DNA from: an uncultured Thiohalocapsa sp.
GTDB lineage: Bacteria; Pseudomonadota; Gammaproteobacteria; Chromatiales; Chromatiaceae
Direction: 5' to 3'
DNA length: 47,125 bases
NCBI RefSeq assembly: GCF_913063425.1
Contig: NZ_CAJXYK010000049.1
Coordinates: 1-47,125, forward strand
Shown: one piece after another, positions 1,573 through 21,680 of the stretch
Position numbering within the stretch: the first letter of the stretch is position 1
Layout: every line of letters starts with the position of its first letter
Notes under the pieces: generated by a model
What the model saw: the letters and a program-made list of their open reading frames with translations, nothing else
Databases searched by the model: none
What the model was told of the DNA's origin: nothing
Program-made: the position numbers and the translations under genes

Positions 1573-1666
1573 GGTGACCTCCATCGGCGGTGAGCGCAGC
1601 GCCCCGTTATACTGGCCCCGAGCCCGATGCGCCATACGCCGCCGCTGCGACACGCGAGACCCGCCG

Positions 1667-2155: not shown

Positions 2156-2191
2156 GCGCCGCCGCCCGAGCCCCCACCTGCACACCTGACC

Positions 2192-2809: not shown

Positions 2810-2978
2810 TTCAGAGCGCCCAGCTGCACTCCGCCCCGGAGCCCCAAGCTTCGCTCGGCCCCCTGGGGACGCCGAGTTCCACTCGGCGAGCGACGAACGC
2901 AGCCCCAGCCTGACTCACTCCCGGCCGTACGCCCAGCGCAGCGGTCCGACCAGCAAACCGCCCCGCATCGCCGCCCCG

Positions 2979-3989
2979 TCAGCGCAGCATCGGCAGCTGC
3001 TGCCATGCGCCGATCTCCACCAGGCCCCGCGCCAGCGACGCGCCGAAGCGCTCGGTGAGGCGCTCCAGCAGGGTGCGCTCGGTGCTGTACTTGACGATCT
3101 CCTCGACGCCGACCAGCTCCCGGGCGACATAGCTGCTGGAGCCGATGCCGTCGCTGAGGCCCAGCGCCACGCTCTCCTGCCCGGTCCAGAAGAGCCCGCT
3201 GAAGAGCTCGTCGCCACCCGTGAGGCGATCGCCGCGGCCCGTCTTCACGGCGTCGATGAACTGGACATGGATGTTGTCGAGCAGCCCCTGCAGGAAGGCC
3301 CGGTCCCGCTCCGGGAGCGGCGAGAAGGGATCGAGCATGGCCTTGCGGTCGCCGGCGGTGAGGAGCCGCCGCTGGATGCCCAGCTCCTCCATGGCCTGCT
3401 GGAAGCCGAAGCCGTCCAGGCGCACGCCAATGGAGCCCACCAGGGTCGCCTCGTCCACATAGATCTCGTCGGCGGCGGCGGCGATGTAGTAGGCGCCCGA
3501 GGCGCAGGCGTCCACGCCCACGGCGTAGACCTTCTTGTCCGGGTATTCCTCGCGCAGCCGGCGGATCTCGTCGAAGACATAGCCCGCCTGCACCGGGCTG
3601 CCGCCCGGGCTGTTGATGCGCAGGATCACCGCCTTGGCGTGGTCCGCCTCGAAGGCCTTGCGCAGCGCGGTGATGATGCGATCCGCGCTGGCGTCGGTCT
3701 CGGGCGCGATGAGGCCGTTCACCTCGATCAGCGCCGTGTGCTCCAAGCCGGCGCTCAGGGACTCGCCGAGGCCGTCGGCATAATAGGTGGCCACCAGCAG
3801 CAGCAGATAGGCCAGGATGCCCATGCGGAAGATCACGCCCCAGCGCCGGGTGCGGCGCTGCTCGCGCAGGAACTCCGCGGCCATGCGGTTGATGAGTGCC
3901 CGCTCCCACTCGGGATCATCCGGTGACGGCATATGCTCGTCCCGGCTCGGGTCGCGCGGTTTCCAGAACTTGAGAAAGTCGAGCTTCAT
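2979..3989 (-). CDS. sppA: Signal peptide peptidase SppA, short 36K type
   Basis: This is an inner-membrane serine peptidase of family S49 that degrades cleaved signal peptides. One transmembrane segment lies at about residues 52-70, followed by the ClpP-like peptidase domain. The nucleophile S164 sits in ACASGAYYIA and the general base K216 in GDRKAM. The 52-residue spacing equals that of the single-domain SppA enzymes. NSPGGSP (126-132) is the oxyanion/strand motif. The usual CASGGYY reads CASGAYY, a mild change. The 336 residues fit the short form, not the two-domain E. coli enzyme. It overlaps the upstream HAD gene by 4 bp, so the operon order is rluC - HAD phosphatase - sppA. Confidence 0.92.
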   Translation of the reverse strand: MKLDFLKFWKPRDPSRDEHMPSPDDPEWERALINRMAAEFLREQRRTRRWGVIFRMGILAYLLLLVATYYADGLGESLSAGLEHTALIEVNGLIAPETDASADRIITALRKAFEADHAKAVILRINSPGGSPVQAGYVFDEIRRLREEYPDKKVYAVGVDACASGAYYIAAAADEIYVDEATLVGSIGVRLDGFGFQQAMEELGIQRRLLTAGDRKAMLDPFSPLPERDRAFLQGLLDNIHVQFIDAVKTGRGDRLTGGDELFSGLFWTGQESVALGLSDGIGSSSYVARELVGVEEIVKYSTERTLLERLTERFGASLARGLVEIGAWQQLPMLR

Positions 3990-4663
3990 GGGGTGTCGTC
4001 GTCTTGTGTGGCGGCGGCCGCGGCGAGCCAGCCGGGCAGTGCGTCGATGGCGGAGAGGCAGGCGAGCGGTGCGAGCGCCAGCAGCCGCTCCGGGGCATGG
4101 GCGCCGTAACAGACGGCGAGCGCCTCCACGCCCGCGTTCTTCGCGGTGAGCAGATCGTACTCGGTGTCGCCGATCATCAGCGCCCGGGAGGCATGGACGC
4201 CAAGCTCGTCCAGCAGTTCCAGCAGCATTTGCGGATGCGGCTTGGAGAAGGTCTCATCCGCCGAGCGGGTGGCGTGGAAGTGCGGCTCGAGGCCGCTCTC
4301 TGCCAGGGCCCGGTTGAGCCCGATGCGGCTCTTACCCGTGGCCACGGCCAGCAGATAGCCCGCCGACCGCAGCTCCGCCACCACCTCGGCGGCACCGGCG
4401 AAGAGCGGCGTGGGCGTATCGTCCAGCTCCAGGTAGTGCGCCCGGTAGTGCTCGATGAGCCGGGCGCGCAGGGCCTCGTCGGCATCCGGCGCCAGCTCCG
4501 CCACCGCGTGCGAGAGACCAAGGCCGATGACATTGCGCGCGGCGGCCGCGGGCGGCGGCACCAGGCCGAGCTCGCGAAAGGCTGCCTGCATGCTGGCGAC
4601 GATGCGCGCCGCCGAGTCCATCAGGGTCCCGTCCCAGTCGAACACCAAGAGCTCATAACGCAC
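3986..4663 (-). CDS. HAD-family phosphatase, phosphoglycolate-phosphatase-like
   Basis: This is a cytoplasmic haloacid-dehalogenase-superfamily phosphatase. Motif I is FDWDGTLMD (nucleophile D9, acid D11), motif II ATGKSR, motif III around FSKPHP, and motif IV MIGDTEYD. The cap domain inserted after motif I is all-helical (subclass I), as in Gph/PGP enzymes. It sits between rluC and sppA, as its Pseudomonas counterpart does. A GTG start at 4663 preceded by AGGAG at 7 bases is preferred; another GTG at 4681 is possible. The start lies within the end of rluC, so translation is coupled. The substrate cannot be read from sequence. Confidence 0.88.
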   Translation of the reverse strand: MRYELLVFDWDGTLMDSAARIVASMQAAFRELGLVPPPAAAARNVIGLGLSHAVAELAPDADEALRARLIEHYRAHYLELDDTPTPLFAGAAEVVAELRSAGYLLAVATGKSRIGLNRALAESGLEPHFHATRSADETFSKPHPQMLLELLDELGVHASRALMIGDTEYDLLTAKNAGVEALAVCYGAHAPERLLALAPLACLSAIDALPGWLAAAAATQDDDTP

Positions 4664-5648
4664 GGCTCTGCTCCTCTGCACGTTGCATCACCGCGGCCAG
4701 GGCCTCCGGCAGCGGTGCGGTGACGGTGATGGGGGCCGCGTCCTCCCGCGCGCGGAAGCCGAGCTCCGCGGCGTGCAGGAACAGGCGCTCCAGGCCCAGC
4801 GCCCGCGCTTGTGCCCGATGCTCCGGGCGACCGTACTTGTCGTCGCCCGCCACGGGTGCACCGATGGCGGCGGCATGCACGCGGATCTGGTGCGTGCGCC
4901 CGGTGTGCAGGTCCACGTCCACCAGCGTCATGCCGCCGTAGGCTGCCACCCGGCGGAACACCGTGAGCGCCGGCTTGCCCGTGGCCGCGTCCACCCGGAC
5001 CATGCGCTCTCCGCCCTGGAGCTGGTTCTTGGCGAGCGGCAGGTCCACCCGCTGCAGCGGACCCGCAAGCGGCCCCAGCAGCAGGGCCCGATAGCGCTTG
5101 GCGACGGCCCCCGCGCGCAGCTGTGCATGCAGGAAGCGCAGCGCGCTGCGCCGCTTGGCGACCATGAGACAACCGGAGGTCTCCCGGTCGAGCCGATGCA
5201 CCAGCTCCAGCGTCAGCTCCGGGCGCCCCGCCCGCAGCGCCTCGATGACGCCGTGCGCCACACCGCTGCCGCCGTGCACGGCGACGCCGGCGGGCTTGTC
5301 CAGCACCAGCAGCCGCGAATCCTCGTACAGGATGCGCTCCGCCAGGGCTGCGGTGAGCCCGGCCGGCACTGGACGCTCGGCGTCTCGGGTGGGCGTGCGC
5401 ACCGGCGGGATGCGCACGTCGTCACCCGCCTGAAGTCGCTGCTGCGGCTTCACGCGCCCCTTGTTGACGCGCACTTCGCCGCGGCGCAGCAGGCGGTAGA
5501 CCAGCGCCCGCGGCACGCCCCTGAGCTCCGCCAGCAGGAAGTTGTCGACGCGCTGGCCCGCCGCCTCCGCCGAGACGCGCACATGACGGACGCCCTGTGC
5601 GCGCTCCTGTGGCTGTCGCTGCGCACGCCGGGCGCTCGGATCGGTCAA
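4653..5648 (-). CDS. rluC: 23S rRNA pseudouridine synthase RluC
   Basis: RluC converts specific uridines of 23S rRNA (955, 2504 and 2580 in E. coli numbering) to pseudouridine. An S4 RNA-binding domain covers about residues 32-80 and the RluA-type catalytic domain follows. The catalytic aspartate D154 lies in HRLDRETSG. The C-terminal GRTHQIRVH motif is intact. The length of 331 residues is usual. The start appears to be TTG at 5648, behind GAGGG; no better start lies before the S4 domain. The divergent position next to rne is a widely conserved arrangement and supports RluC over RluD or RluA. Confidence 0.92.
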   Translation of the reverse strand: MTDPSARRAQRQPQERAQGVRHVRVSAEAAGQRVDNFLLAELRGVPRALVYRLLRRGEVRVNKGRVKPQQRLQAGDDVRIPPVRTPTRDAERPVPAGLTAALAERILYEDSRLLVLDKPAGVAVHGGSGVAHGVIEALRAGRPELTLELVHRLDRETSGCLMVAKRRSALRFLHAQLRAGAVAKRYRALLLGPLAGPLQRVDLPLAKNQLQGGERMVRVDAATGKPALTVFRRVAAYGGMTLVDVDLHTGRTHQIRVHAAAIGAPVAGDDKYGRPEHRAQARALGLERLFLHAAELGFRAREDAAPITVTAPLPEALAAVMQRAEEQSRAL

Positions 5649-5869
5649 TTGCTGACCCTCTGAAACCTTGCTAACCTTAGGAACTTATGCCAGCCCGTCC
5701 GGGGTGGGCAGTGTGGCCGCTTGTCGGCGCGCCTGAGCGATATTTCGATCCGATGCTGAGGCCTGCTACGTCGGCTCGATGCTTCGACCCGGCAGCCAGG
5801 GCCATGCGGCGGGTCCGTATGTGTGGCCCATGCCGGCACCGGACCCCGAGTACGAGGGCTCTCCTGAGG

Positions 5870-5935
5870 CTGCACCGGGCCTGAACCGGGCCTGAACCGG
5901 GCCTGAACCGGGCCTGAACCGGGACTGAACCGGGG
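5870..5935. repeat. Six tandem 11-bp repeats in the rluC-rne intergenic region
   Basis: Five consecutive copies of the unit ctgaaccgggc (the last base varies in the final two) run from 5881 to 5935. They are preceded by one imperfect copy, ctgcaccgggc, at 5870. The array lies in the 707-bp gap between rluC and rne, which contains no convincing gene. The period of 11 bp is close to one DNA helical turn, so the copies face the same side of the helix. Whether the array lies within the rne leader or upstream of its promoter cannot be told. Confidence 0.9.
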
Positions 5936-5982
5936 ACAGCATAGGGGAAGGCGGCCAACAGACGGCGCCCTTTCGGACCATC

Positions 5983-6131
5983 GGGCCGCCCATGGTACAT
6001 CGGCGGCCCATTGCGGCCCACCTTGTGTTGCCTTGTGGGGCGCAGCTGTGGACGCCGGGCGCCGCCCGCGCTGCCGGCGAGCGGGCTGTAACGAACAACG
6101 ATTTGCCGGGCACCGACGCCGTCGGTGCCCG
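5983..6131 (+). promoter_or_regulatory. Structured rne leader with two strong hairpins
   Basis: Two perfect inverted repeats lie ahead of rne. The first pairs gggccgcc (5983-5990) with ggcggccc (6002-6009) around an 11-base loop. The second pairs cgggcaccgac (6107-6117) with gtcggtgcccg (6121-6131) around a 3-base loop. In E. coli a long structured rne 5' untranslated region mediates RNase E autoregulation. By analogy these hairpins may do the same; that is inference. The rest of the gap shows no gene. Confidence 0.5.
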
Positions 6132-6355
6132 AACCTGCGACCCGGCCCCTCCCAGCCGGGCGCACATTGAACACAGGCGCGTGCCCGACGCTTGCCTGCC
6201 GCCGACCACCGACGCACTGCGCGCTGCGGCGGCTGCATACTTCGGGCCCGTCGGCATGGGGAGCCGACTGCGAGCGGGTCACCGGCAGCCGGCCGTCGAG
6301 GCCGGCCCGGCCTACGGCATCACGCCGCGCGCCACGGCCAGAGTGCGCAGACAAC

Positions 6356-9300
6356 ATGAAGAGAATGCTGATCAACGCAACGCAGCCGGAAGAGCTGCGC
6401 GTTGCGATCGTGGACGGGCAGAAGCTATTCAACCTCGACATCGAAAGCCCCGGACGGGAACAGAAAAAAGCCAACATCTACAAGGGCACCATCACCCGCG
6501 TCGAGCCGAGTCTGGAGGCGGCCTTCGTCGACTACGGCTCGGAGCGCCACGGCTTCCTGCCGCTGAAGGAAATCTCCCGGGCCTACTTCGAGCAGGAGCT
6601 GAAGCCCGGCAGCAAGGCCAGCATCAAGGAGCTCATCAAAGAGGGCCGTGAGGTCGTCGTCCAGATCGACAAGGAGGAGCGCGGCAACAAGGGCGCCGCA
6701 CTCACCACCTTCGTCTCGCTCGCCGGGCGCTACCTGGTGCTGATGCCGAACAACCCCCGCGCCGGCGGCGTCTCCCGGCGCATCGACGGCGCCGACCGCT
6801 CGGAGCTGCGCGAGGCCCTGAGCCAGCTCGAAATCCCCGAGGACATGGGGCTCATCGTGCGCACCGCGGGGGTCGGCAAGAACGCCGAAGAGCTGCAGTG
6901 GGATCTCGACTATCTGCTGCAGCTCTGGGACGCCATCAAGACCTCCAGCGAGAGTCGCAAGGCGCCCTTCCTGATCTATCAGGAAAGCGACATCATCATC
7001 CGCAGCATCCGCGACCACCTGCGCGCGGATATCGGCGAGATCGTCATCGACAGCCAGGCGATGTACCGCCGCGCGGAAGAGTTCATCCAGCAGGTGATGC
7101 CGCACAACGAAAAGAAGCTGCGCCTGTACCAGGACGAGGTGCCGCTGTTCACCCGCTACCAGATCGAGAGCCAGATCGAGTCCGCCTTCCAGCGCGAGGT
7201 GCGCCTGCCCTCCGGCGGTGCCCTGGTGATCGACCACACGGAGGCGCTGACCTCCATCGATATCAACTCGGCCCGCGCCACCAAGGGCGCCGACATCGAA
7301 GAGACGGCGCTCAACACCAACCTGGAGGCCGCCGACGAGATCGCCCGGCAGCTGCGCCTGCGCGACCTGGGCGGGCTCTTCGTCATCGACTTCATCGACA
7401 TGACGCCCGCCAAGCACCAGCGCGAGGTGGAGAATCGCCTGCGCGAGGCGCTGAAGCAGGACCGCGCCCGGGTGCAGGTGGCGCGCATCTCCCGCTTCGG
7501 GCTGCTGGAGATGTCGCGCCAGCGCCTGCGGCCGTCGCTGGGCGAGTCGAGCCAGCACGTCTGCCCGCGCTGTAAGGGCCAAGGCACCATCCGCGGCGTC
7601 GAGTCCCTGGCCCTGTCGGTGCTGCGCATCATCGAAGAAGAGGCGATGAAGGACAGCACGGCGCGCATCCTCGCCCAGCTGCCGGTGGACGTCGCCGCCT
7701 TCCTGCTGAACGAGAAGCGGCGCAAGATCCTTGAGATCGAGCAACGCCATGACGTCGGCGTGGTCCTGATCCCGAACAAGCACCTGGACACGCCGGATTA
7801 TTCCATCGAGCGCGTCCGCGTCCAGGACGCCGAGCGCCGCAGCGAGGACGAGCCCAGCTACACCCTGGCCAACGTCCCCGAGCAGGCGCTGCCGGCGTTC
7901 GCCGCCGTCCGTGGGGACGTGAAGCCGGAGGAGCCTGCGGTGAAGGGCGTCAAGCCGACGGCGCCGGTGCCGCAGCGCCCGCGCGCCGCGCAGCCGCCCG
8001 TACCTGAGCGCGCGGACGACCTGGAGGCGCAGCACCAGGAGAGCATGCTGAAGAAGATCTGGGGCATGCTCTTCGCGCCCCCCGGTGACGACGATGCGCG
8101 GGAGCCTCAAGCGGCGGCCGACACGGCGGCAGCGCCGGCGCCGCATGCAGCCCAAGCAGACGACAGGCGCGCGGAGCGCACGCAACGCCCGGGCGACGAC
8201 GCCAGCGACGGCAAGCCGCCGCAGCGCAAGCCCCGCGGCCAGCGCCGCGACGACACCGGCCAGCAGCGCCGCAGCAAGCCGAAGGCGGATGCAAAGCCGG
8301 ACGCCAGAGCCGATGTGGGGGCCACGGACCAGGGGGCGGAGGAGCCCGATCAGCAGCGCCAAAACCGCACCCGCCGCAGCCAGGGCGGAGCCCGCAGCGA
8401 CGACGGCGAGCGTCAGCGCAGCTCGCGGCGCAGCAGCCGCGGCGGTCGCTCGCGCCGCGGTGGCGGCCAGCGCGAGCAAGGCGACGGCGCCAAGGCCGAG
8501 GCGCGGGACGACCAGTCGGCGGCGACTCCGGACGCCACCACAGATGCGGCGCCGGACACGGCTCAGGCCAAGCCACCAAGGCACGAGCAAGCGCAGCCGG
8601 ACAAGCCACAGGCGCCCGGGCGACAGCTCATGACCCGCACCGATACCCTGCCCATGGCCATGCCGCAGCAGTCGGGGACCACCTCCGATGCCGACGGCGA
8701 CGCCGATGCCGGGGGCCGAACGGACGCCGACGCTGTCAGCAGCCCGGACACCGGCACCACGGAGGCCGGCAAGAACGGGGAGGATGAGCAGACCGGCAGC
8801 CGCAGCCGCTCCAGCAGGCGGCGGCGCGGCGGGCGGCGCCGGCGCAGCAGCAGCGCCCGCGAGGGCGAGGCGGCAGCGGACGGCAGCGGCCAGCAGAGCG
8901 GCGCCGAGGCCGCCGACCAGGTGCCACCCGCCCAGGCGCCCGCCACGCCGCCAGCCCCGGCGGGCGACGCCGCGACCACGGGCAACGGCGGGGTGAGCGC
9001 CCACGGCGCAGTCGACCAGCCCCGGCACGACACCACCTCGCGTGCCGCTGAGCCCACAGCATCCGGGAGCGCGCAGGCTGCGAACAACGCCGCGGACGCG
9101 CCGCCACCCCGGGCGCAGGCGACAGCCCCCTTGGCAGCACCGAAACCCGAGCCGGCGGCGGAAGCTCCGGTCGCCGCAGGCCCCGCGGTTGACGGCGGCA
9201 AGAGCACGCCGGCAGCCCACGCATCGAGCGACTTGCCACCCGCCGCGGATGCCGCCCCACCGCAGCGCCCGCGCAAGGGCAACGGCGCGACGGCACCGGA

Positions 9301-13149: not shown

Positions 13150-13644
13150 TCAGAGATGGCGGCGGCGGATCGCGTCCAGCAGACCGGCGGCCGCCTCCTC
13201 CACCATATCGAACACCGCCTCGAAGCCGCCGGTGGCGCCGTAGTACGGGTCCGGCACCTCGCGCATGCGCGCCTGCGGGGCATAGTCCATCAACAAGGCC
13301 AGGCGCTTCTCCAGGCCCCGGCCAGGCGGACAGATGGCGGACAGCGCATGGTAGTTGTCCTGATCCATGGCGAGCACGTAGTCGTACAGCTCGAAGTCCT
13401 CAGCGGTGGCGCGCCGTGCACGCAGATCCGCAAGGTCGATGCCGCGGCGCAGGGCCGTCTCCCGCGCCCGCGCATCCGGCGGCTCGCCGACGTGGTAGGC
13501 GTGGGTGCCCGCGGAGTCGATCTCGATGTACTCCACCAGACCCGCCTCCTCCACCAACTTGCGGAATACCCCCTGGGCCGTCGGCGATCGGCAGATATTG
13601 CCCATGCAAACAAATAGCACTTTCACACGTTTCTGATCGTTCAT
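13150..13644 (-). CDS. ptpA: Low-molecular-weight protein tyrosine phosphatase, 5' end replaced by the integrated element
   Basis: This is a cytoplasmic LMW-PTP, the family of Wzb, which dephosphorylates tyrosine kinases controlling exopolysaccharide export. The P-loop VCMGNICRSP holds the nucleophile C13 and R19. The general acid D132 lies in VPDPYYG. Its 164 residues are complete. The codons before and including C13 lie at or beyond the attachment core and come from the mobile element; the displaced original start is at 21615-21680. Both versions encode the same VKVLFVCMGNI core and the reading frame is preserved. Transcription must now start from element DNA. In Pseudomonas this gene follows kdsB, as it did here before insertion. 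Confidence 0.93.
   Translation of the reverse strand: MNDQKRVKVLFVCMGNICRSPTAQGVFRKLVEEAGLVEYIEIDSAGTHAYHVGEPPDARARETALRRGIDLADLRARRATAEDFELYDYVLAMDQDNYHALSAICPPGRGLEKRLALLMDYAPQARMREVPDPYYGATGGFEAVFDMVEEAAAGLLDAIRRRHL
13595..13608. other. attL core, 14 bp, inside ptpA
   Basis: The sequence atattgcccatgca is identical to 21631-21644 in the same orientation. On the minus strand it encodes C-M-G-N-I of the phosphatase P-loop, including the catalytic Cys13 codon. Flanking similarity continues imperfectly on both sides. Confidence 0.88.
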
Positions 13645-13747
13645 AACTGTCTGTTCTGTATCGGTTTGCTGTGCATCCCTGTTCGCCTGTGTTTGTGTGT
13701 GTATACTCTAGTGAGGCACACAAAGACACACACAAACAGGGGCACAC
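13645..13747. promoter_or_regulatory. Divergent ptpA/int control region with inverted repeat and integrase arm sites
   Basis: This 103-bp gap separates the divergent ptpA and integrase genes. A TATACT box lies at 13702-13707 for the rightward (int) direction, and its complement gives TATACA leftward. It is flanked by an imperfect inverted repeat: 13686-13702 (tgtttgtgtgtgt type) and 13726-13740 (acacacacaaacagg). Two GGCACACA motifs occur at 13715-13722 and 13741-13748, and the same octamer occurs four times at the other end. These look like arm-type integrase sites, so integrase binding could repress both genes. That regulatory step is inference. Confidence 0.6.
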
Positions 13748-14779
13748 ATGAACGAATCGGATGCTAGGGCGTTGCGGTGGGACGGTAAAGACCGGATGGT
13801 GTCTGCCGGCGACGGGCTGTTCCTCAACGTGCGCCGCCGGTCCAAGACTTGGATCACCCGGCGCCGCATCGGCGGCAAGATGCGGGTTCGGACCTTGGGC
13901 ACCTACCCCGCCATGAAGGCCAAGGAAGCGCGCGCGCTGGCGTTGCAGGAAGCGGTACAGGCCGCCCCGAGCAACCGCACGGTGCGAGACCTCGCCGAAG
14001 ATTGGTTCTCGCAGGTTGTCGCGGTGGAGCATAAGCGCCCCGAGCTTGCCCGCGGGTATCTCGACCGGGCCATTCTCCCGGACCTTGGCGCCCGTCGGGT
14101 TGCAGAGCTGACGCCCGCCGACATCGCCGCGAGCATCGGCGGATACCGGGCCAGAGGCCCGCGCTCGGCTGATTCCCTGCGATCCGTTTATGTCGGGCTC
14201 CTGACATATGCCGTCGAGACCGGCGTTCGCGCCGACAACCCCGCCAAGGCCCTGACGCGTCGTGTTGCAGGCTACCGCCCCGCCGCCCGCGAGCGCGTGT
14301 TGACCGATGACGAGCTGCGCCGCGCCTGGCACTGCGGCCACCACAACGCGCGCATGCTGCGGTTCCTGCTGTTGACCGGGTTGCGCATCAGCGAGGCGCA
14401 GAAAGGCCACCAGGACGGGCGCCGCTGGCACGTGCCCGCGCAGTTCTCCAAGAACGGCAAGCCGCATTGGGTCCACCTGTCCGACAGCGCCCTTGCACAA
14501 CTGCCGCTGCCCGTCTCGACACCGACCAACATTCAAGCCTGGCTTCGGCGCTGGTGCGCTCGCGAGGGGATCGCGCCGCCCTTCACGCCCCACGACTGCC
14601 GCCGCACGGCCGCAACCAGGATGGCCGGCGCTGGCGTTGACCCGTTCATTGTCGAGCGCACCCTGAACCACACCCTGCAAGGCGTGATGGCCGTTTACAA
14701 CCGCAACGAGTATGAAGCCGAGCGGATCGCGGCGGCTGATGCCTTGGAGCGGGCTTTGCTTTCGGTAAAGGAGGACTGA
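13748..14779 (+). CDS. int: Tyrosine-recombinase integrase
   Basis: It catalyses integration and excision of the element. The N-terminus (about residues 5-75) resembles the DUF4102 arm-binding domain of P4-type integrases, with GDGLFLNVRR and VRTLGTYPAMKAKEAR. A core-binding SAM-like domain follows (about 77-170). The catalytic residues are R213 (GLRISEA), H282 and R285 (HDCRRTAAT), H308 (LNH) and Y317 (AVYNRNEY). Length is 343 residues. The gene lies directly next to attL and reads inward. The start codon overlaps an arm-type GGCACACA motif, suggesting autoregulation. Confidence 0.92.
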   Translation: MNESDARALRWDGKDRMVSAGDGLFLNVRRRSKTWITRRRIGGKMRVRTLGTYPAMKAKEARALALQEAVQAAPSNRTVRDLAEDWFSQVVAVEHKRPELARGYLDRAILPDLGARRVAELTPADIAASIGGYRARGPRSADSLRSVYVGLLTYAVETGVRADNPAKALTRRVAGYRPAARERVLTDDELRRAWHCGHHNARMLRFLLLTGLRISEAQKGHQDGRRWHVPAQFSKNGKPHWVHLSDSALAQLPLPVSTPTNIQAWLRRWCAREGIAPPFTPHDCRRTAATRMAGAGVDPFIVERTLNHTLQGVMAVYNRNEYEAERIAAADALERALLSVKED

Positions 14780-14782
14780 CGA

Positions 14783-15304
14783 ATGACTGGCCTTCCTGAA
14801 CTTCCTCCCGGAATGCGTTGGGACGTGGTTTTGCATGATGACGACGGTAACTTTCCCGATCCTGATCTGAAACAGTACATGACGAGTCTCATTGATCGGT
14901 ATCGCAACGGTGATAACTTTGCCCTCTTACAGGCTATCAGCCTGGCCTTGTCAAGGAACGCGGGATGCCTGCTCCCCGATGACATGCTCGGACAGTTTCG
15001 CTCGGGACTCGCCATGTACGACTGCGGGAACGCGCGAACGCTGGATGAAGCTTTCAACGTGGCTCGCCCGAAAGGATGGCATCAACAGACACACAAAGAT
15101 TGGCAGCGGAGCCAACAGGTTTTCATTTGGGTACAACAAGCACGATTGGGCTCTAAGAGCATCAATGAAGCAATCTTGAAGGTTGCAAAGAGAATAGGGT
15201 TCTGCAAAACCAAGACAGAGGAGATGTACTACTCCTGGAAGAAGGTCGTCGATGCTGCTCGCCGTTCCCGGAAAAAAACAAAAATTACGGGAATACAGGA
15301 TTAA
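14783..15304 (+). CDS. Unknown protein with lower-GC codon use
   Basis: This 173-residue protein was not recognised. It starts 3 bp after the int stop, with AAAGGAGG upstream, so it is cotranscribed with the integrase. It is acidic at the N-terminus (HDDDGNFPDPD) and ends in a basic tail (ARRSRKKTKITG). The middle is mostly helical, with a possible helix-turn-helix around SKSINEAILKVAKRIGFCKTKTEEMYYSWKK. Its composition is clearly poorer in G+C than its neighbours, which suggests a separate, more recent origin. A regulator or a defence/immunity cargo gene are both possible; neither is shown. Confidence 0.7.
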   Translation: MTGLPELPPGMRWDVVLHDDDGNFPDPDLKQYMTSLIDRYRNGDNFALLQAISLALSRNAGCLLPDDMLGQFRSGLAMYDCGNARTLDEAFNVARPKGWHQQTHKDWQRSQQVFIWVQQARLGSKSINEAILKVAKRIGFCKTKTEEMYYSWKKVVDAARRSRKKTKITGIQD

Positions 15305-15318
15305 GCGACCAAGCTAAT

Positions 15319-15350
15319 CTGTAACCGTCGTTCACAACTGTCGGTTACAG
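15319..15350. promoter_or_regulatory. Operator-like palindrome before the HTH gene
   Basis: A perfect 9-bp inverted repeat, ctgtaaccg (15319-15327) and cggttacag (15342-15350), is spaced by 14 bases. It ends 3 bases before the HTH gene start, covering where a ribosome would bind. It fits an operator for the HTH protein or an integrase/excisionase site. No uridine tract follows, so it is not a terminator. Confidence 0.55.
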
Positions 15351-15353
15351 CAG

Positions 15354-15632
15354 ATGCCATCCAAACCCGCGACCCCCGAAACCGCCAACGCCCCCGACAC
15401 GAGCGCGCCCGGCGGGATCGACCATCCCCCGGCTGAATTCCCCGCCCGCAAGGCATACCCCGTCGAGGAAGCCCGCGGGCTTCTCGGCGGCATCTCCCGG
15501 AAATCCATCTATGACCTGATCAATGCTGGTGAGCTGCGCTCGGTACTGATCGCAGGCCGCCGGTTGATCCCGGCAGACGCCATCGATGAGCTTATCCGTT
15601 CCGCTGGGCAACAGCCCCCGCGTGCGGCATAG
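15354..15632 (+). CDS. Helix-turn-helix protein of the excisionase/AlpA type
   Basis: This 92-residue protein has a disordered N-terminal third and then a winged-helix motif: AYPVEEARGLLGGISRKSIYDLINAGELRSVLIAGRRLIPADAIDELI. That matches HTH_17/excisionase-family proteins that bend attachment-site DNA or, as AlpA in satellites, activate excision. A 9-bp inverted repeat sits directly upstream and could be its own operator. Whether it acts as excisionase, regulator or both is unresolved. Confidence 0.78.
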   Translation: MPSKPATPETANAPDTSAPGGIDHPPAEFPARKAYPVEEARGLLGGISRKSIYDLINAGELRSVLIAGRRLIPADAIDELIRSAGQQPPRAA

Positions 15633-15644
15633 GGAGGCGCACCG

Positions 15645-15866
15645 ATGAACGACCTAGACCGCATCGACACCCTGCGCACCGTCGCCGACGAGGTGCGAGC
15701 CCTGGCTATGCTGCTGAGCAACAGCGGCACCCAAACACCATTGCCCCGGGGGCTCAGCAGCCTGTTGGACCGCATCGCCGACACCTGCGACGCCGCCGCC
15801 GAATCCGGGCCGCAGATCGAGCTTCGAGACGACACCGACCAGGCCGTCACCAGGACCGGCCCGTGA
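15645..15866 (+). CDS. Small unknown protein
   Basis: This 73-residue protein is acidic and mostly helical (LDRIDTLRTVADEVRALAMLLSNSG), with no recognised family. GGGAGGC lies about 6 bases before the ATG, and the stop overlaps the start of the ATPase gene by 4 bp, so it is part of the replication-region transcript. The helical, Leu-rich character would fit a small partner or accessory of the ATPase, but nothing in the sequence proves it. Confidence 0.65.
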   Translation: MNDLDRIDTLRTVADEVRALAMLLSNSGTQTPLPRGLSSLLDRIADTCDAAAESGPQIELRDDTDQAVTRTGP

Positions 15867-17473
15867 CGGAACCGACACCGCTGCCGCCCGGCCCGAGCCG
15901 CATCGCGAAGCAGGCCGCCGCCCGCGATGCAGCCGAGCCGCCACCGGGGACCATCGTATGCACCCCGGGATACCTGGACGATGCAGTGCAGGCCGTCGGC
16001 CGTGCGCTCGCCGCGTCAGCGTCCGCGCTGGGTCTGTATCAGCATGGCGATACCCTGACCCGCGTTGCCGAAGCCGACGACACCGAGCGCCCCGGCATCA
16101 GTCGTGCGCCCGGTTCGCCCGTGCTGCGCCCCGTGGACAACGCATGCCTCGCCGTCTACATCAGCCGAGTGTGCGAGCTGGTGCGATGGGACGGGCGCAA
16201 GAACGATTACAGCGCGATCGACCCGCCCCGGCGCGTGGTGGATGGAGTCGCGTCCATCGCAGACCGCTTCGGGTTCCCCGACCTCCGGGGATTCATTTCC
16301 GCGCCCATCGTCACGCCTGACGGCCGCGTCATCGCCGCGCCTGGATACGATGAGGCGACCGGGCTCTATCTCGCCGCCGCGCTGCCGCTGCCGCCGACCC
16401 CCGACAGCCCCACGAAGTTGGACGCTTCGGCCGCGCTGGACTATCTCGCCGCCGACATACTCGGCACCTTCGCGCAGACATGGGCCACGCCCGCCGACGA
16501 GTCGGCCGCCGTCGCCGCCATCCTGACGGTGCTGTTGCGGCGCATCCTGCCGACCGCGCCCATCGTCGCTATCGACGCGACCACGCCCGGGAGCGGAAAG
16601 ACGTTGCTGGCAGAAGTGTTCGCCACCATCGCCACGAACCGCCCGCCCGCGCTGGTGAGCTTGACCCGCGACGCCGCAGAAACCGAGAAGCGCATTGGCG
16701 CGGTGCTGATGGCCGGCGATGCCGTCATCAATCACGACAACCTGTCGTTTCCGCTGCGCTCAGACATCCATTGCCAGATGGCGACCGCCCCCGAGGTTGC
16801 GCTTCGCGTGCTGGGCGCATCGCGCGTGACGCGGGTCCCGACCAATGTCGCCACCCTGATCACCGGCAACAACCTGACGCTGCTCGGCGACCTCCCCCGG
16901 CGCGTGCTGCGCATCGGGCTTGATCCGCGGTGCGAGCATCCGGAGCGCCGCAGGTTCGACCGTGACGCGGTTGCGCACGCCCGGGCGCATCGCGCCGCAG
17001 CCGTCGCCGCCGCCCTGACCTTGGTCCGTGCATACCTGATCGCAGGCGCCCCCGACGTTGGCGTGACGCCCTACGGCAGTTTCGAGCTGTGGGACCGCAT
17101 GGTCCGCCGCCCCGTTGTCTGGGCTGGATTCCCCGACCCCCTGGACGCGGCGGCTGACCTGTCGTCACAGGATCACGAGTTGACCGCCGTCGCTGACCTG
17201 TTGGCGGCATGGCATGACCAGTATGGGGACCGGCCGATGACTGCGCCGGAAGTCATCCGCGATGCCGAGGCGCAGTTGATGACGGGGCAGACGCGACACC
17301 AGGCCCTCGCAGATGCCATCCAAGAGGCCACCGGGCACCGACAGACCGACGCCCGCGCGCTCGGCAACCTGCTCCGAGGCTATGCCGGTCGCTGGCTGGA
17401 CGGCCGCCGCGTCGTCAAGGGCAAGAAGTCAAGAGCCGGCATGAGCTGGGCCGTCGAAGTGAACCGAGTGTGA
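15863..17473 (+). CDS. P-loop ATPase, probable replication protein of the element
   Basis: The Walker A motif TPGSGKT lies at residues 241-247, a Walker-B-like VINHDNL at 288-294, a sensor-like LITGNNLTL at 332-340 and an arginine-finger candidate LPRRVLR at 344-350. This layout resembles AAA+/SF3-like helicase domains of replication proteins in phages and integrative elements. The N-terminal 200 residues carry no recognised primase motif. The 536-residue gene starts with GTG (4-bp overlap with the upstream small gene). An origin-like inverted repeat overlaps its 3' end. Specific helicase function is inference. Confidence 0.72.
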   Translation: MTEPTPLPPGPSRIAKQAAARDAAEPPPGTIVCTPGYLDDAVQAVGRALAASASALGLYQHGDTLTRVAEADDTERPGISRAPGSPVLRPVDNACLAVYISRVCELVRWDGRKNDYSAIDPPRRVVDGVASIADRFGFPDLRGFISAPIVTPDGRVIAAPGYDEATGLYLAAALPLPPTPDSPTKLDASAALDYLAADILGTFAQTWATPADESAAVAAILTVLLRRILPTAPIVAIDATTPGSGKTLLAEVFATIATNRPPALVSLTRDAAETEKRIGAVLMAGDAVINHDNLSFPLRSDIHCQMATAPEVALRVLGASRVTRVPTNVATLITGNNLTLLGDLPRRVLRIGLDPRCEHPERRRFDRDAVAHARAHRAAAVAAALTLVRAYLIAGAPDVGVTPYGSFELWDRMVRRPVVWAGFPDPLDAAADLSSQDHELTAVADLLAAWHDQYGDRPMTAPEVIRDAEAQLMTGQTRHQALADAIQEATGHRQTDARALGNLLRGYAGRWLDGRRVVKGKKSRAGMSWAVEVNRV

Positions 17474-17577
17474 CTGTGTGACTCTAGCGAACGTATTTCT
17501 CCCTACGCATAGAAAGTGTCAATGCAAAAAAATATAGGTAGTGGGGAACCGACTCGCGAGAGTCTACACAGTCACAC
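17468..17577. repeat. Long-range inverted repeat around an AT-rich spacer, origin candidate
   Basis: The left arm gtgtgactgtgtgactct (17468-17485) and the right arm at 17559-17577 are complementary except for one inserted T. The 73-bp spacer contains a run of A and TATA-like bases (17526-17537), unusual in this GC-rich window. It lies directly after the replication-type ATPase, inside a 221-bp gap before the small terminase gene. A replication origin is the favoured reading; a packaging or regulatory site is also possible. Confidence 0.6.
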
Positions 17578-17694
17578 GCCGCCGTGACTGCGGGTCCTTC
17601 CGACCCACCGACCATGCGATGCACCGAGTCGCGATTGTTTCCTAGCGTGAAACTGAATCTGAAACGTTAAGGCGAAAGAAAACGGGTCGCAGTC

Positions 17695-18282
17695 GTGACA
17701 GATACCGAGAACTATTCGCAACAAGAGCTGTTGCCCGATCCGGCCCGGAAGATCGGCACCAAGGCCGAGTACGCCCGGCACCGCGGCTGCGCCCCGTCGG
17801 CAGTGACCCGCGCGCTGAAGGAAGGACGTATCTCCACCGTCATCATCAACGGCCGCGAGATGGTGGACTTCGAGGCCAGCGACCGCCGATGGGCCACCCT
17901 GACCAGGCCCAAGGCCGACGCGCCGACCGGGCCGCAGCAGCGCCCCGACCGCAGCGAAGAAGAACCCGAAGGGGACAAGTACAAGGCCGCCAAGACGCGC
18001 GAGGCCGAAGCGTCGGCTGCGCTGCGGGAGCTGGAGCTTCAGCGCCGCCGTGGTGAGCTGGTGCCCCTGGCAGACGTGGTGCAGGACCTGACGACCGCCG
18101 TCGGCATCATCCTCAACGCCTGGCACGGACTGCCGGCTCGCATGGCCCCGGTTCTGGCGGATCAACCGCAGGACCGCATACATGCACTGCTCGCCGAAGC
18201 CGTCACCGACATTCAGGCCGCGACGCATGCCGCGCTGGAGAAGGCCGTTCGCGAGTCTCAGGCAGAGCCCCAAGCCGAATGA
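17695..18282 (+). CDS. Small terminase subunit-like protein (Nu1/DUF1441 style)
   Basis: Small terminases recognise packaging sites on phage DNA and recruit the large subunit. This 195-residue protein has an N-terminal helix-turn-helix (about residues 20-45, IGTKAEYARHRGCAPSAV) and a long charged helix (KYKAAKTREAEASAALREL), the typical organisation of Nu1-like packaging proteins. The start is GTG at 17695, the only good start before the HTH. Its stop overlaps the next gene by 4 bp. No large terminase follows, so it may redirect the terminase of a helper phage, as small terminases do in known phage satellites. That role is inferred. Confidence 0.72.
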   Translation: MTDTENYSQQELLPDPARKIGTKAEYARHRGCAPSAVTRALKEGRISTVIINGREMVDFEASDRRWATLTRPKADAPTGPQQRPDRSEEEPEGDKYKAAKTREAEASAALRELELQRRRGELVPLADVVQDLTTAVGIILNAWHGLPARMAPVLADQPQDRIHALLAEAVTDIQAATHAALEKAVRESQAEPQAE

Positions 18283-18551
18283 CCGCGCGGCAGTGCACGC
18301 CCGATACCGAGCGCACCGCCCGGGAGCTTACCCAGGCAGTGCGGCAGGCGTTGGGGCTGCACCGCGAGCTCGCCGTGCTGGTGTCCATCGAGCTGTGGCG
18401 GACGATGGCAGGCCGGACAGTGCCACCGTTCGACCAGGCCGCCGCGATCCGGGCTGCGCTCGCCGCAGATGTGACGCCCGAGCGCGCCGCCGAACACTTC
18501 GGGCTGCCGGTCCCGGTATTGATGGCCATCGCGAAGCGCGCGCGCCAATGA
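18279..18551 (+). CDS. Small unknown protein with possible helix-turn-helix
   Basis: This 90-residue protein was not recognised. The C-terminal half (DVTPERAAEHFGLPVPVLMAIAKR) has the spacing of a helix-turn-helix, suggesting DNA binding. The start overlaps the terminase-like gene by 4 bp (ATGA), and its stop overlaps the next gene in the same way, so the three are translated as a chain. A role in packaging or late-gene control is possible but not shown. Confidence 0.65.
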   Translation: MTARQCTPDTERTARELTQAVRQALGLHRELAVLVSIELWRTMAGRTVPPFDQAAAIRAALAADVTPERAAEHFGLPVPVLMAIAKRARQ

Positions 18552-18961
18552 GCCTCGAGCGCATCCACCAAGCCGCAGAGGCCCTCGCAGGCTCCGAGCT
18601 TGGCGAGTATCTCGCCGACGTTGCCGCGCGCCTGGACGCGGGCTTGGACCCCGCCATCGCCTTGGAGCTGAAAGGCCCTGCCGCCATGCGCCGCCGGGAC
18701 CGGCTGTTGTCTCAAGCCGCGCACCTGGCAGCGCCGGATGAATCCCTGTGGCAGCGAGCCGCCGCCTTGGCCGCGTTGATCCGCCGCCGCGAGCGCCGCA
18801 CAAGCCGGCCGCTGTCGGGCGCCGAGCGATTGATCGAGGCCGCCGCGCGATCCGGCACGCTGCCGCGGTCCCGCCGCCGCCTGTATGACCTGCTGTGTGC
18901 GCAGCACCAGGAAGCGCCCGCTGAAATCGAGCCTGCTGCGGTTGCAGCGCACGCCGCCTAG
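18548..18961 (+). CDS. Unknown helical protein
   Basis: This 137-residue, Ala/Arg-rich protein is predicted by eye to be almost entirely helical, and no family was recognised. It begins at the ATGA overlap with the preceding gene. The basic patch LIRRRERRTSRPLSGAERLIEAAARSG suggests contact with nucleic acid or a capsid. Position between small terminase and capsid is where many phages encode portal or head-completion proteins, but it is far too short for a portal. Confidence 0.65.
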   Translation: MSLERIHQAAEALAGSELGEYLADVAARLDAGLDPAIALELKGPAAMRRRDRLLSQAAHLAAPDESLWQRAAALAALIRRRERRTSRPLSGAERLIEAAARSGTLPRSRRRLYDLLCAQHQEAPAEIEPAAVAAHAA

Positions 18962-18998
18962 AGTACTCGCCACGATCAACCCACACAGCGCAGGACCC

Positions 18999-19247
18999 AT
19001 GTCCACCATCGTTCCCGCCCCCGCCGACGCGTTGTCAGGCTGGATTCTCACGCCCGGCCGCGCCCCGGTCCCGACCGTTGCGGTTGCCTTCGAGATCGAC
19101 GGCGGCAACGCGACCCCGATCTATTACCCGCCGCTGCCACGCGGCGCCAAGTTCGCGCGCGCCCTCCCCAATGGTGGCGTGGAGCTGGACGGGCAGACCT
19201 TCGTCAACATCGAAAGCTGCGCTGCTGCACAGCGGGAGGCCGCGTGA
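18999..19247 (+). CDS. Small unknown protein before the capsid gene
   Basis: This 82-residue protein has no recognised family. It is rich in beta-type sequence (PTVAVAFEIDGGNATPIYYPPLPRGAKFARALPNGGVELDG) and shows no membrane segment. Its stop overlaps the start of the capsid-like gene by 4 bp. The position and beta-rich composition would fit a head decoration or structural protein, but this is a guess from context only. Confidence 0.6.
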   Translation: MSTIVPAPADALSGWILTPGRAPVPTVAVAFEIDGGNATPIYYPPLPRGAKFARALPNGGVELDGQTFVNIESCAAAQREAA

Positions 19248-20407
19248 TGTACCAAATCAACCGCCCTGCCCCCGGCGACGCGCCGCGCGCCCGCGATGTG
19301 CGAGACAGCATGGACGCCATGCGCCTTCCCGAGCCCGACCGACGCGAGATCGCGCGCGATGCCATCGTTGCAGGCGCAACGGGCCGCACCGCCGGGGCGC
19401 ATCCCTTCGCGCAAGCGTTCAGCGACGCGGGCGCCGCGCGCCTGCTGGCCCTGCTGGAAGGCGTAGACCTGTCCCTCGCCGACGAGCCGACGCGCCGCGT
19501 CGAGGACCTGCCCGCACACGTTCGCAGCGACGCTGCCCCGCTGGTGGCAGAACTGAACCGCGCGCGCGATTCGGCGGTGAGCGTGAAGCGCCGCGCCTTC
19601 GGTTCCGCGCAGTTGATCGACGTGGTACAGGCCGCCGCACAGGCCATCGCGCAGGCCGACAACGCCCCGACCGGCGAACATGACGCATTCATGCGGACCT
19701 TCGAGCTTGCGGACTTCCGAGCCTCACGCGCGCCGCGGATCGAGCCCGGCGACCTCGCCGACGTGACCGGCTCCATGCGCGCAGTCCCGCAGTGGGAATT
19801 CGAGCTGGCCGGGGAAATGGTGTCGTTGCAGACCAGCGGCGCCACTGCCGCGTTCACCCGACAGGCCATCGTCAACGGCCAGTGGTTTGAGCTGGCCGCC
19901 ATCGTCCGCGAGCTGGCCGCCGCTGCGCAACGCGCCGAGCGGGAGGGATTCATCCGGTTGCTGAACGACAACCCGCAACTGTTCGATGGGGCGCCGATGT
20001 TCGACGCGAGCCGCAACAACGTCGTCACCGCTGGTGCGAGCTTCGCCGCAACCCTGCAGGCTGCCGCACAGGCCCTGCGGGACCTCAAGAGCGCAGTCGG
20101 CGCCGCGCTGCAACCGGCACCGCGCGCCCTCGCACTGCCCGCGACCCATGAGCTTGACGGCAGCGTCCGCGAGATCGCAGACCGCGCCAAGCTGGCCTTG
20201 CTGTTCGACTCACGGTTGACCGCCGGGTATCTGTTCCCCGACCCCGAGCGCCGGCCCGTTGTCGGGCTCGGACTGCTTGACGGCGAGCGCCGGTATGAAG
20301 TGCGCATCAAGCCCGACTTTCACGCCGACGCCTGGCAGACGCGCATCCTCCACCACCACAAGGTTTGCCCGCTGTCGCCGCACGCGGTGCGCTTCGAGCT
20401 GCCGTGA
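19244..20407 (+). CDS. Diverged phage major-capsid-like protein
   Basis: The middle of this 387-residue protein resembles the capsid half of prohead-protease/major-capsid fusions from Mu-like and related phages. The marks are AAFTRQAIVNGQWF (residues 202-215), NDNPQLFDGAPMFDASRNN (241-259) and a C-terminal VRIKPDFHADAWQTRILH. No ClpP-like protease active site is seen in the N-terminal region, which is replaced by about 120 unrelated residues. Expected partners (portal, protease, large terminase) are absent. It either builds a satellite-specific small capsid or alters that of a helper. Similarity was judged by eye and needs a profile search. Confidence 0.68.
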   Translation: MMYQINRPAPGDAPRARDVRDSMDAMRLPEPDRREIARDAIVAGATGRTAGAHPFAQAFSDAGAARLLALLEGVDLSLADEPTRRVEDLPAHVRSDAAPLVAELNRARDSAVSVKRRAFGSAQLIDVVQAAAQAIAQADNAPTGEHDAFMRTFELADFRASRAPRIEPGDLADVTGSMRAVPQWEFELAGEMVSLQTSGATAAFTRQAIVNGQWFELAAIVRELAAAAQRAEREGFIRLLNDNPQLFDGAPMFDASRNNVVTAGASFAATLQAAAQALRDLKSAVGAALQPAPRALALPATHELDGSVREIADRAKLALLFDSRLTAGYLFPDPERRPVVGLGLLDGERRYEVRIKPDFHADAWQTRILHHHKVCPLSPHAVRFELP

Positions 20408-20520
20408 TGCTTCCCGCGGTCATGTCGGCATGGACCGCCGGCATGCGTGATGCCGGCGCCCCACGGTCCGCAACGGGGCTTGCCCGCGCTGGCTTCGGCT
20501 GCCGCGGGCTTTCTGATTGA
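20407..20520 (+). CDS. Tiny reading frame after the capsid gene
   Basis: This 37-codon frame starts on the last base of the capsid-like stop (TGATG) and ends with a TGA that overlaps the next ATG, so it sits in a chain of overlapping frames. The composition is Ala/Gly/Arg-rich and no homologue is known to me. The overlap pattern is the only argument for it being real. Confidence 0.3.
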   Translation: MLPAVMSAWTAGMRDAGAPRSATGLARAGFGCRGLSD

Positions 20521-20699
20521 TGGAGCCCCCCATGCTAGCCGCCCGGCAATCTCTGAACCTGCTTGCCCGCGCCAACCTTCGCGCCAAGCGCGCCGCCGCC
20601 ATCGGCGCCCACCAGGCGAGACGCTACCGCCGCCGACTGCCGCCGCCGGAAGGCCCGCGACCCGCAGACGAAGCAGGCCCGCCCGCCCGGCACAACTGA
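20520..20699 (+). CDS. Small basic unknown protein
   Basis: This 59-residue frame follows the tiny upstream frame by a TGATG overlap. An internal ATG at 20532 is an alternative start. The protein is strongly basic in its N-terminal 40 residues (LARANLRAKRAAAIGAHQARRYRRR), like small DNA- or RNA-binding proteins of phages. Its end runs to the edge of the long repeat array. No family was recognised. Confidence 0.4.
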   Translation: MEPPMLAARQSLNLLARANLRAKRAAAIGAHQARRYRRRLPPPEGPRPADEAGPPARHN

Positions 20700-21514
20700 G
20701 CGCCGCGCGCGCCGCCGTCCGGCGCTGCCCTCCCGATGGAGTTTCCCCGCTGGCCAGCGCCCCAGGGAGCGCCCCGAGCGCCGACACCGGCCCGGAGCTG
20801 GTGCACCGGCTCGGCACCGCCCCGAGCGGCACCCCGTCGGCACCGTCGAGGCCCTCGCCATGCGCCCCCGCGCCCGGGAGCCGGTACCAGGCCCGGGCAC
20901 CGTGCCCCAGGGCACCCGGCACCACCTGAGCGAGCCGCACGCGCCGCCGCCCGGCGCTGCCCTCGCGATGGACCTTCCCCGCTGGCCAGCGCCCCAGGGA
21001 GCGCCCCGAGCGCCGACACCGGCCCGGGGCTGGTGCGCCGGCTCGGCACCGGCGAGCCGGCGACCTCGCACCCGGTCGGGAAGGTCCCGAGGGGCACCCG
21101 GTCGGCACCGTCGAGGCCCTCGCCATGCGCCGCGGCGCCCGGGAGCCGGCACCAGGCCCGGGCACCGTGCCCCAGGGCACCCGGCGCCGCCTGAGCGAGC
21201 CGCACGCGCCGCCGCCCGGCGCTGCCCTCCCGATGGACCTTCCCCGCTGGCCAGCGCCCCAGGGAGCGCCCCGAGCGCCGACACCGGCCCGGAGCTGGCG
21301 CACCGGCTCCGCACCGGCTCGGCATCAGCGAGCGGGCGCCCTCGCACCCGGTCGGCACCGCCCCGAGCGGCACCCCGTCGGCAAGGTGGCGACCGGCACC
21401 CCGTCGGCACCGTCGAGGCCCTCGCCACGCGCCGCAGCGCCCGGGAGTCGGCACTAGGCCCGGGCACTGTGCCCAGGGCATCCGGTACCGTCTGAGCGGG
21501 CCGCACGCGCCGCC
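20698..21514. repeat. Three long GC-rich direct repeats plus a partial fourth, at the right end of the element
   Basis: Copies of about 231, 262 and 302 bp lie at 20698-20928, 20929-21190 and 21191-21492, and a fourth starts at 21493. Two conserved blocks (about 85 and 115 bp) flank a middle part that lengthens by shorter sub-repeats of the ccccgagcggcacc type. Each copy carries a GCCCGGG/CCCGGGC inverted repeat (20872, 21137, 21439) and a GTGCCC/GGGCAC palindrome (20902, 21167, 21469). No credible gene lies inside. The function is unknown; packaging site, replication iteron or structured RNA are candidates. Confidence 0.85.
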
Positions 21515-21522
21515 GATGGTGC

Positions 21523-21584
21523 TGTGTGCCTGTCTGTGTGCCTGCGGTTATGCCGAATCTATGCGGCACACAGAACGGCACACA
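21523..21584. promoter_or_regulatory. Right-end cluster of integrase arm-type sites
   Basis: Four copies of an octamer occur: TGTGTGCC at 21523-21530 and 21535-21542, and the reverse GGCACACA at 21565-21572 and 21577-21584. Spacing is 12 bp within each pair and the two pairs face each other. The same octamer appears twice at the integrase end. This paired layout next to attR is typical of arm-type recombinase sites. Confidence 0.65.
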
Positions 21585-21614
21585 AGGCAAATAAAACGCT
21601 TTACAATCAGTGCC

Positions 21615-21680
21615 TTATGACGATTCGGCAATATTGCCCATGCAGACGAACAGGACTTTGACCTTGGCGGTTTGCGTCAT
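21615..21680 (-). pseudogene. Displaced original 5' end of ptpA (attR side)
   Basis: The minus strand from 21680 encodes MTQTAKVKVLFVCMGNI, then AESS and a stop. The first 17 residues match the N-terminus of the complete phosphatase at 13150-13644, and the reading switches to unrelated sequence at the 14-bp att core (21631-21644). This is the native start of ptpA cut off by integration. Its promoter presumably still lies just upstream (above 21680), now driving only this 21-residue stub. Confidence 0.9.
21631..21644. other. attR core, 14 bp
   Basis: This is the second copy of atattgcccatgca, identical to the attL core and in the same orientation, 8,036 bp away. It marks the right boundary of the element inside the stranded ptpA 5' fragment. 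Confidence 0.88.

Follow-up and report, generated by a model that had tools for sequence, protein, structure and literature searches.

The question raised by this locus was whether a short element with genes for a terminase small subunit (TerS) and a major capsid protein (MCP) is a phage satellite, and what these two proteins would do for it. The window, a 47,125-nt stretch of DNA from an uncultured Thiohalocapsa sp. (contig NZ_CAJXYK010000049.1), contained a discrete element at 13595–21644, in which 8,036 bp separate the two attachment (att) cores. We interpreted it as an integrated satellite resembling the phage-inducible chromosomal islands (PICIs), whose TerS and MCP would redirect the packaging and head assembly of a helper phage. 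This reading as a whole is probable. That the element is a satellite is very likely; a part for TerS and MCP in packaging DNA and building heads is favoured to a lesser degree, by analogy with known satellites.

The element has ten genes on the + strand (13748–20407), all without internal stops. All ten open reading frames (ORFs) were scanned with Pfam and PHROGs, and nine sequences (eight of the ten ORFs, and orf82 from its own start) with NCBIfam. The first gene (13748–14779, +) encodes a tyrosine integrase of 343 aa (PF00589, Phage_integrase, 1.2e-13; phrog_1, 4.6e-52). Further along is the gene for an AlpA/excisionase-type helix-turn-helix (HTH) protein of 92 aa (15354–15632, +), which matched HTH_17 (5.8e-8) and, under the cut-off of that family, TIGR01764 excise (8.6e-5). 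A replication ATPase of the primase/helicase C-terminal type (536 aa; 15863–17473, +) matched phrog_29234 (5.7e-94) and the polymerase/primase family phrog_19930 (1.3e-27). At its end lies an origin-like inverted repeat with an AT-rich centre (17468–17577). The 12-nt arms (17468–17479 and 17566–17577) are perfect, and the DNA fold gave z = -5.66, with none of 200 shuffles equally good.

The TerS gene (17695–18282, +) was recognised by phrog_57 (1.6e-26), without support from Pfam or NCBIfam. The MCP gene (387 aa; 19244–20407, +) matched PF25209 (4e-12) over positions 25–244 of 262, which is most of the capsid domain, and a PDB profile search matched the MCP to a Mu gpT-type capsid (5e-8). The protein is of mature length. 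Aligned with protease–MCP fusion relatives, it corresponded to the mature capsid domain, and since the ClpP protease and the linker of these relatives are missing, it may need no cleavage. It also matched phrog_133 'head maturation protease' and, below the cut-off, the NCBIfam 'protease/MCP fusion'. Both matches were confined to the C-terminal capsid half of these families. Other than these, the Pfam, PHROGs and NCBIfam matches listed for the ORFs of the element included no large terminase (TerL), portal, protease, tail or lysis family. The host assembly had no match to PF05876 (GpA terminase) or PF05136 (portal_2) at E <= 0.01, other terminase types not having been searched. A first-pass annotation, made from the letters alone, had called the integrase, HTH/excisionase-like protein, replication ATPase, origin-like repeat, TerS and MCP, and had noted the lack of the other phage genes. 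The profile searches and the fold test agreed with it in all of these.

The extent of the MCP match is also what would be expected of a satellite that forms its own capsid, in which the MCP would build the whole head unaided and a helper would lend the neck, terminase and tail. An integrase 37% related to that of the window occurs on a contig resembling capsid-forming PICIs (cfPICIs), with portal, protease and TerL (L100). Portal, protease, connectors and TerL were not found here, yet cfPICIs carry them, according to the sections on these islands in PMC10690885. Moreover, the MCP homologue Ccm of the satellite SaPIbov5 forms no heads alone, in the sections of PMC8569155 devoted to it. We regard this alternative as unlikely. 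The first-pass annotation had proposed that the element makes or reshapes its own capsid. The part that stood is the gene for an MCP of its own; an own capsid could not be told from mixing into that of the helper, as with Ccm, or from an idle MCP.

The ends of the element were defined by a direct repeat of 84% identity across 32 nt. The left copy, attL (13595–13626, exact core 13595–13608), lies within the 5' end of a gene for a low-molecular-weight protein tyrosine phosphatase (LMWPTP; 13150–13644, −; PF01451, 4.7e-40), and the right copy, attR (21631–21662), carries the displaced native 5' end of that gene, the original start now lying to the right of attR. The LMWPTP gene remains open because the element provides a fresh start and N-terminus. 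Empty sites were found in two genomes of the same genus (G081 and G157), where the right flank is continuous with an unbroken LMWPTP gene. LMWPTP was matched in nine of the ten genomes of the genus, and the eight others had no element at the site. In another genome (G169; L084, about 1061–1360) the same site held a 39-residue remnant of an 87%-identical integrase, and in G108 the 5' end of the LMWPTP gene was of the element type, which may be a scar. The LMWPTP core was seen in the window, L037 and L096–L099, none of which held a whole prophage, although no prophage survey was made.

The remnant in G169 is genuine, and it raises the possibility that the element itself is the residue of a once larger prophage undergoing decay here, with MCP and TerS as leftovers. 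Every recognised gene is indeed of phage type, and the 3' end is gene-poor and repetitive. This explanation was rejected, in keeping with the satellite proposed in the first-pass annotation, and is very improbable: all ORFs are open, the att sites are kept and empty sites are known, the same gene order recurs in independent elements elsewhere, and relatives are under purifying selection and occur as circle and tandem-repeat contigs.

The evidence from relatives was as follows. The integrase is 42–46% identical to those of L037, L096, L097 and L098, and the ATPase has relatives of 41% identity in L071, L096 and L098. The nearest gene content was that of L098, with integrase, AlpA-type HTH, the 41% ATPase, a Nu1-type TerS, the small protein orf137 (below) and a ClpP–MCP fusion, and with the att core at both ends. 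In L097, which has integrase, HTH, orf137, ClpP–MCP and a tape measure protein, the ends were identical over 99 nt, and trimming gave a circle of 9,896 bp. Its single core joins a right-end-like and a left-end-like half, the structure of an attP. In a contig of G182 (L016, G182:C1, 1–15163), a 9.4-kb unit bearing TerS-like, orf137, orf82 and MCP genes and a 99-nt tandem repeat occurs 1.6 times in tandem; the copies agree at about 99%, small indels being numerous, and no integrase was recognised on the contig. The circle and the tandem contigs fit excised or replicating DNA, and are no proof of particles.

Exact direct repeats of 25–90 nt were found in 10 of 17 loci tested, bounding elements of 7.6–15.0 kb, nine at tRNA genes and one at LMWPTP. 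Weak repeats of 14 and 16 nt were found in L067 and L068, and none in L063, L066, L014 and L020; the L014 element runs past the contig end, and the L066 stretch stopped within the integrase. MCP and/or orf137 was present in nine of the ten att-bounded loci, and neither was seen in L019. The latter (444–8150) spans 7.6 kb at a tRNA-Lys gene between att repeats of 90 nt; it has a related replication ATPase, and BLAST gave no capsid gene in it. Integrase scans of IMG/VR produced five relatives of 37–44% identity on contigs of 8.8–11.1 kb, and four weak ones on contigs of 34–67 kb. L099 had an MCP of the HK97 type, and its TerS match was weak. Separately, the element at the LMWPTP site in L096 (8146–10157) has TerS together with a Mu gpP fourth-domain protein and a minor tail protein Z; no MCP was seen in it.

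Omega, the ratio of nonsynonymous to synonymous rates, was 0.10, 0.13 and 0.27 for orf137 (three pairs), 0.09 and 0.16 for the protease–MCP fusion (two pairs) and 0.11 for the integrase. The pairs were fusion-type relatives and not of the window type, and synonymous sites were near saturation in most. These ratios indicate purifying selection in the fusion-type relatives.

The capsid genes of the window were traced as a cassette. MCP matches were found in seven of 194 genomes of the family, its own included (E <= 1e-3), and a three-row MCP profile found 7/210 genomes of the order (E <= 1e-10) and 5/369 of the class (E <= 1e-12); these are lower bounds, many genomes having been scored for part of the candidates. 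Against the genome contig database the single MCP sequence gave no match and the three-row profile two. One of the MCP matches (G099, L017) was an ordinary prophage. In the host assembly (5.9 Mb in 117 contigs) the single MCP match and the single PF25209 match were both in the element.

The order TerS–orf137–orf82–MCP was found again in two more purple sulfur bacteria, a Thiohalocapsa sp. (L013 in G143), which belongs to the host genus, and Allochromatium palmeri (L014 in G154), with MCPs 39–43% identical to that of the window. The TerS of G154 is tentatively assigned from its position and an HTH common to other TerS-like genes; it had no Pfam match and no BLAST match to the window TerS. The replication genes of both genomes are of the DUF3987 type and gave no BLAST match to the window ATPase. 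G143 also has a tape measure protein (phrog_28, 1.3e-101). In G438, of a different family, an element at the LMWPTP site has a 43% identical integrase, an MCP and a tape-measure-like protein. The MCP tree had long branches and weak inner support, and the order of protease loss was not drawn from it.

Tape measure or tape-measure-like proteins without a full recognised tail set were observed in L013 (7265–9607), L015 (6423–8645), L037 (11131–13554) and L097 (8266–9995). It is possible that in such satellite-like elements they reset the tail length of the helper.

The conserved protein between TerS and orf82, orf137 (18548–18961, +), was followed with an eight-row profile (A5). It was found in 9/369 genomes of the class and 12/194 of the family (E <= 5e-4), four in each count being the A5 members themselves. 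The set examined comprised 23 loci (8 of A5, 12 of 14 new places and 3 IMG/VR contigs), the places outside it being G161:C364 and G168:C575. A PF25209-type MCP or protease–MCP fusion adjoined orf137, or was one gene off, in 13 of the 23, of which 8 had been found via the MCP and are therefore biased. Pfam backed the MCP in seven of the 13 (the window, L013, L014, L037, L038, L071 and L098); the rest rested on BLAST or our own profile, with no Pfam match for the MCP in L039 and L072. Three further loci had MCPs of other families, PF05065 in L063 and PF03864 in L067 and L073. These three Pfam families are distinct and have one fold in common. The MCP of L067 was 26% identical across 325 aa (1e-31) to that of the Gram-negative PICI EcCICFT073, so that L067 forms a bridge to that island. 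No MCP was recognised in seven loci, several of them short contigs; three of the seven (L066, L070 and L074) had a large terminase, and in L064 a prohead protease occurred together with a tape-measure-like protein.

In a later test of 14 loci, orf137-like frames were found in the MCP elements L015 (6e-13; overlooked by the self-trained caller used for the genes of relatives) and L018 (weak, 6e-4) and in the control L098. None was found in the prophage L017, the cfPICI-like L100, the ATPase loci L019–L021, or L096, L099 and L101–L104. The last four, which are weak integrase matches, also gave no match to four TerL/portal queries, and two portal queries matched only their own sources among 32 sequences.

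The members of orf137 scanned had no PHROG (4/4), Pfam or NCBIfam family, and tblastn with two of them against INPHARED gave no match. The protein is predicted, at low confidence, to be helical (AlphaFold, three-row alignment). Its best PDB profile matches were designed helical proteins at 0.008, which we took as chance. Since orf137 stands beside MCPs of three families, our guess is that it is a packaging or helper-takeover factor rather than a partner of one shell protein. A tentative extension is that orf137 marks a large undescribed group of Gammaproteobacteria satellites of ~8–15 kb, which would combine individual genes for head and tail parts (TerS, MCP of three Pfam families, prohead protease, tape measure protein). 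If this were true, orf137 would serve satellites in general for packaging or takeover, and a tape measure protein, where a satellite has one, would also reset helper tail length. No mention of such a group was noticed in the literature listings searched, and a search on phage satellites in Chromatiaceae returned nothing.

From these genes the following scheme may be drawn for the window element. The integrase and the AlpA-type HTH would excise it at the LMWPTP core, as suggested by the relative seen as an attP circle, and the ATPase would replicate it from the inverted repeat adjoining its gene. TerS would steer the large terminase of the helper to satellite DNA. The MCP would join or replace the shell of the helper to give a head fit for about 8 kb, following SaPIbov5 and another island, PmCI172. 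The helper would give TerL, portal, tail, lysis and, if needed, the prohead protease, and orf137 and orf82 would be late assembly or packaging accessories.

Several observations weigh against this scheme. A helper of the GpA/portal_2 type was not found in the host draft assembly. IMG/VR gave no match for the window MCP, the ATPase or the three-row profiles of MCP and orf137, its distant relatives being reached only by integrase and A10 scans, and tblastn of two MCPs against INPHARED gave none. Only two of the five close IMG/VR integrase relatives had orf137, and a large terminase was present in 3 of the 23 orf137 loci (L066, L070 and L074). The exact att core is only 14 nt. The AlphaFold models were poor (pLDDT 37.3 for the MCP, from the three-row alignment, and 55.6 for orf137). 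In EcCICFT073, deletion of the MCP or decoration gene left transfer and interference unchanged, and all packaged DNA was phage-sized (sections on this island in PMC6092414); the likelihood given to the role of the MCP was lowered because of these findings.

The same result is the chief support for an idle MCP, or for an MCP and TerS that merely disturb helper assembly, with transfer in full-size helper heads; interference is a PICI trait according to PMC6092414. Against this alternative are purifying selection on the protease–MCP of relatives and the recurrence of the MCP together with TerS, and six window proteins (MCP and TerS not among them) gave no match in PADLOC. This alternative is quite unlikely, and we kept the interpretation that TerS and MCP redirect a helper.

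The remaining features were as follows. A 173-aa protein without family (14783–15304, +) and a 90-aa protein overlapping both its neighbours (18279–18551, +) gave no significant match in Pfam, PHROGs, NCBIfam or PADLOC; the former has a weak relative downstream of the integrase in L072 (27% over 97 aa, 1.9e-5). A 73-aa protein (15645–15866, +) is an intact ORF. The small gene orf82 (18999–19247, +) precedes the MCP gene and is conserved, with homologues in L013, L014 and L016. Close to the left end (13715–13748) GGCACACA occurs twice with one variant, and the right end (21522–21584) has matching CGGCACACA twice and CTGTGTGCCTG twice; repeats of the GGCACACA type near both ends are candidate integrase arm sites. 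A three-copy GC-rich repeat (20571–21515; copies of ~265/302 nt) at the 3' end is probably non-coding, and no second genomic place was reported for it among the 40 of 207 candidates that were scored. ARAGORN called a tRNA-Ile within it (21273–21358), which is probably false.

Among known satellites, P4 has marker genes that include Sid and Psu. No P4 marker was among the Pfam, PHROGs or NCBIfam matches of the element, no test having been aimed at P4. The PICI plan, as laid out in the sections of PMC6092414 on it, is integrase, regulator (AlpA in Gram-negatives), primase/rep, origin and an optional TerS. The window element has this gene order, with an origin that is only origin-like. It departs to the letter in one point, the MCP, and PICIs with an MCP homologue have been published. 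PICIs are around 15 kb in size, whereas the element is 8.0 kb and its relatives 7.6–15.0 kb. PICIs are further marked by att sites that prophages never use, by genes found in no other elements, and by excision and packaging that a helper induces, with interference against that helper. Of the genes here, orf137 is the candidate for such a PICI-specific gene, although 3 of its 23 loci have a large terminase.

The first-pass annotation had stated that no Gram-negative PICI matches, which was not upheld. EcCICFT073 is annotated with integrase, HTH, primase, SSB, MCP and head decoration genes; like the window element it has integrase, HTH, primase and then MCP, with TerL, portal and tail not annotated. 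For PmCI172, small heads and an MCP homologue are described in the portions of PMC6092414 on it. On the other hand, the window element differs from both in its PF25209 MCP, phrog_57-type TerS, orf137 and orf82, LMWPTP site and size of 8 kb, and EcCICFT073 had no match to orf137 or to the MCP profile.

SaPIbov5, like the window element as interpreted here, is a satellite with an MCP homologue that takes the remaining head from its helper. As the relevant sections of PMC8569155 describe it, Ccm sits at the pentamers of small helper-built heads, and its N-terminal delta domain is cleaved off. SaPIbov5 is Gram-positive and its Ccm is cleaved, whereas the window MCP is without the protease and linker of its fusion relatives. 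The cfPICIs carry MCP, protease, portal, connectors, TerS and TerL (the part of PMC10690885 on their gene content), of which six only TerS and MCP were found in the window element. L100 (1–9960), with MCP, protease, portal and TerL, nevertheless resembles it in having head genes on a satellite and an integrase 37% identical to that of the window. The phage-inducible chromosomal minimalist islands (PICMIs) share the small size and the integrase–AlpA–replication core, but they lie beside fis and have no capsid remodelling genes, at least in the sections of PMC10803314 that describe them. The LMWPTP site and the MCP set the element apart from them, as had been claimed.

What is new is that orf137 occurs near MCPs of three families and that the element has a partial selection of head genes. 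The question raised is which few head parts a satellite needs to take over a helper, or whether its MCP is of any importance, and orf137, a small unstudied protein often common to these satellites across capsid families, offers a handle for finding more of them. Known satellites have no capsid genes, one that remodels the helper head, or a complete head. Between these kinds lie the window element and its relatives, with TerS and MCP, MCP and tape measure protein, or protease and MCP.

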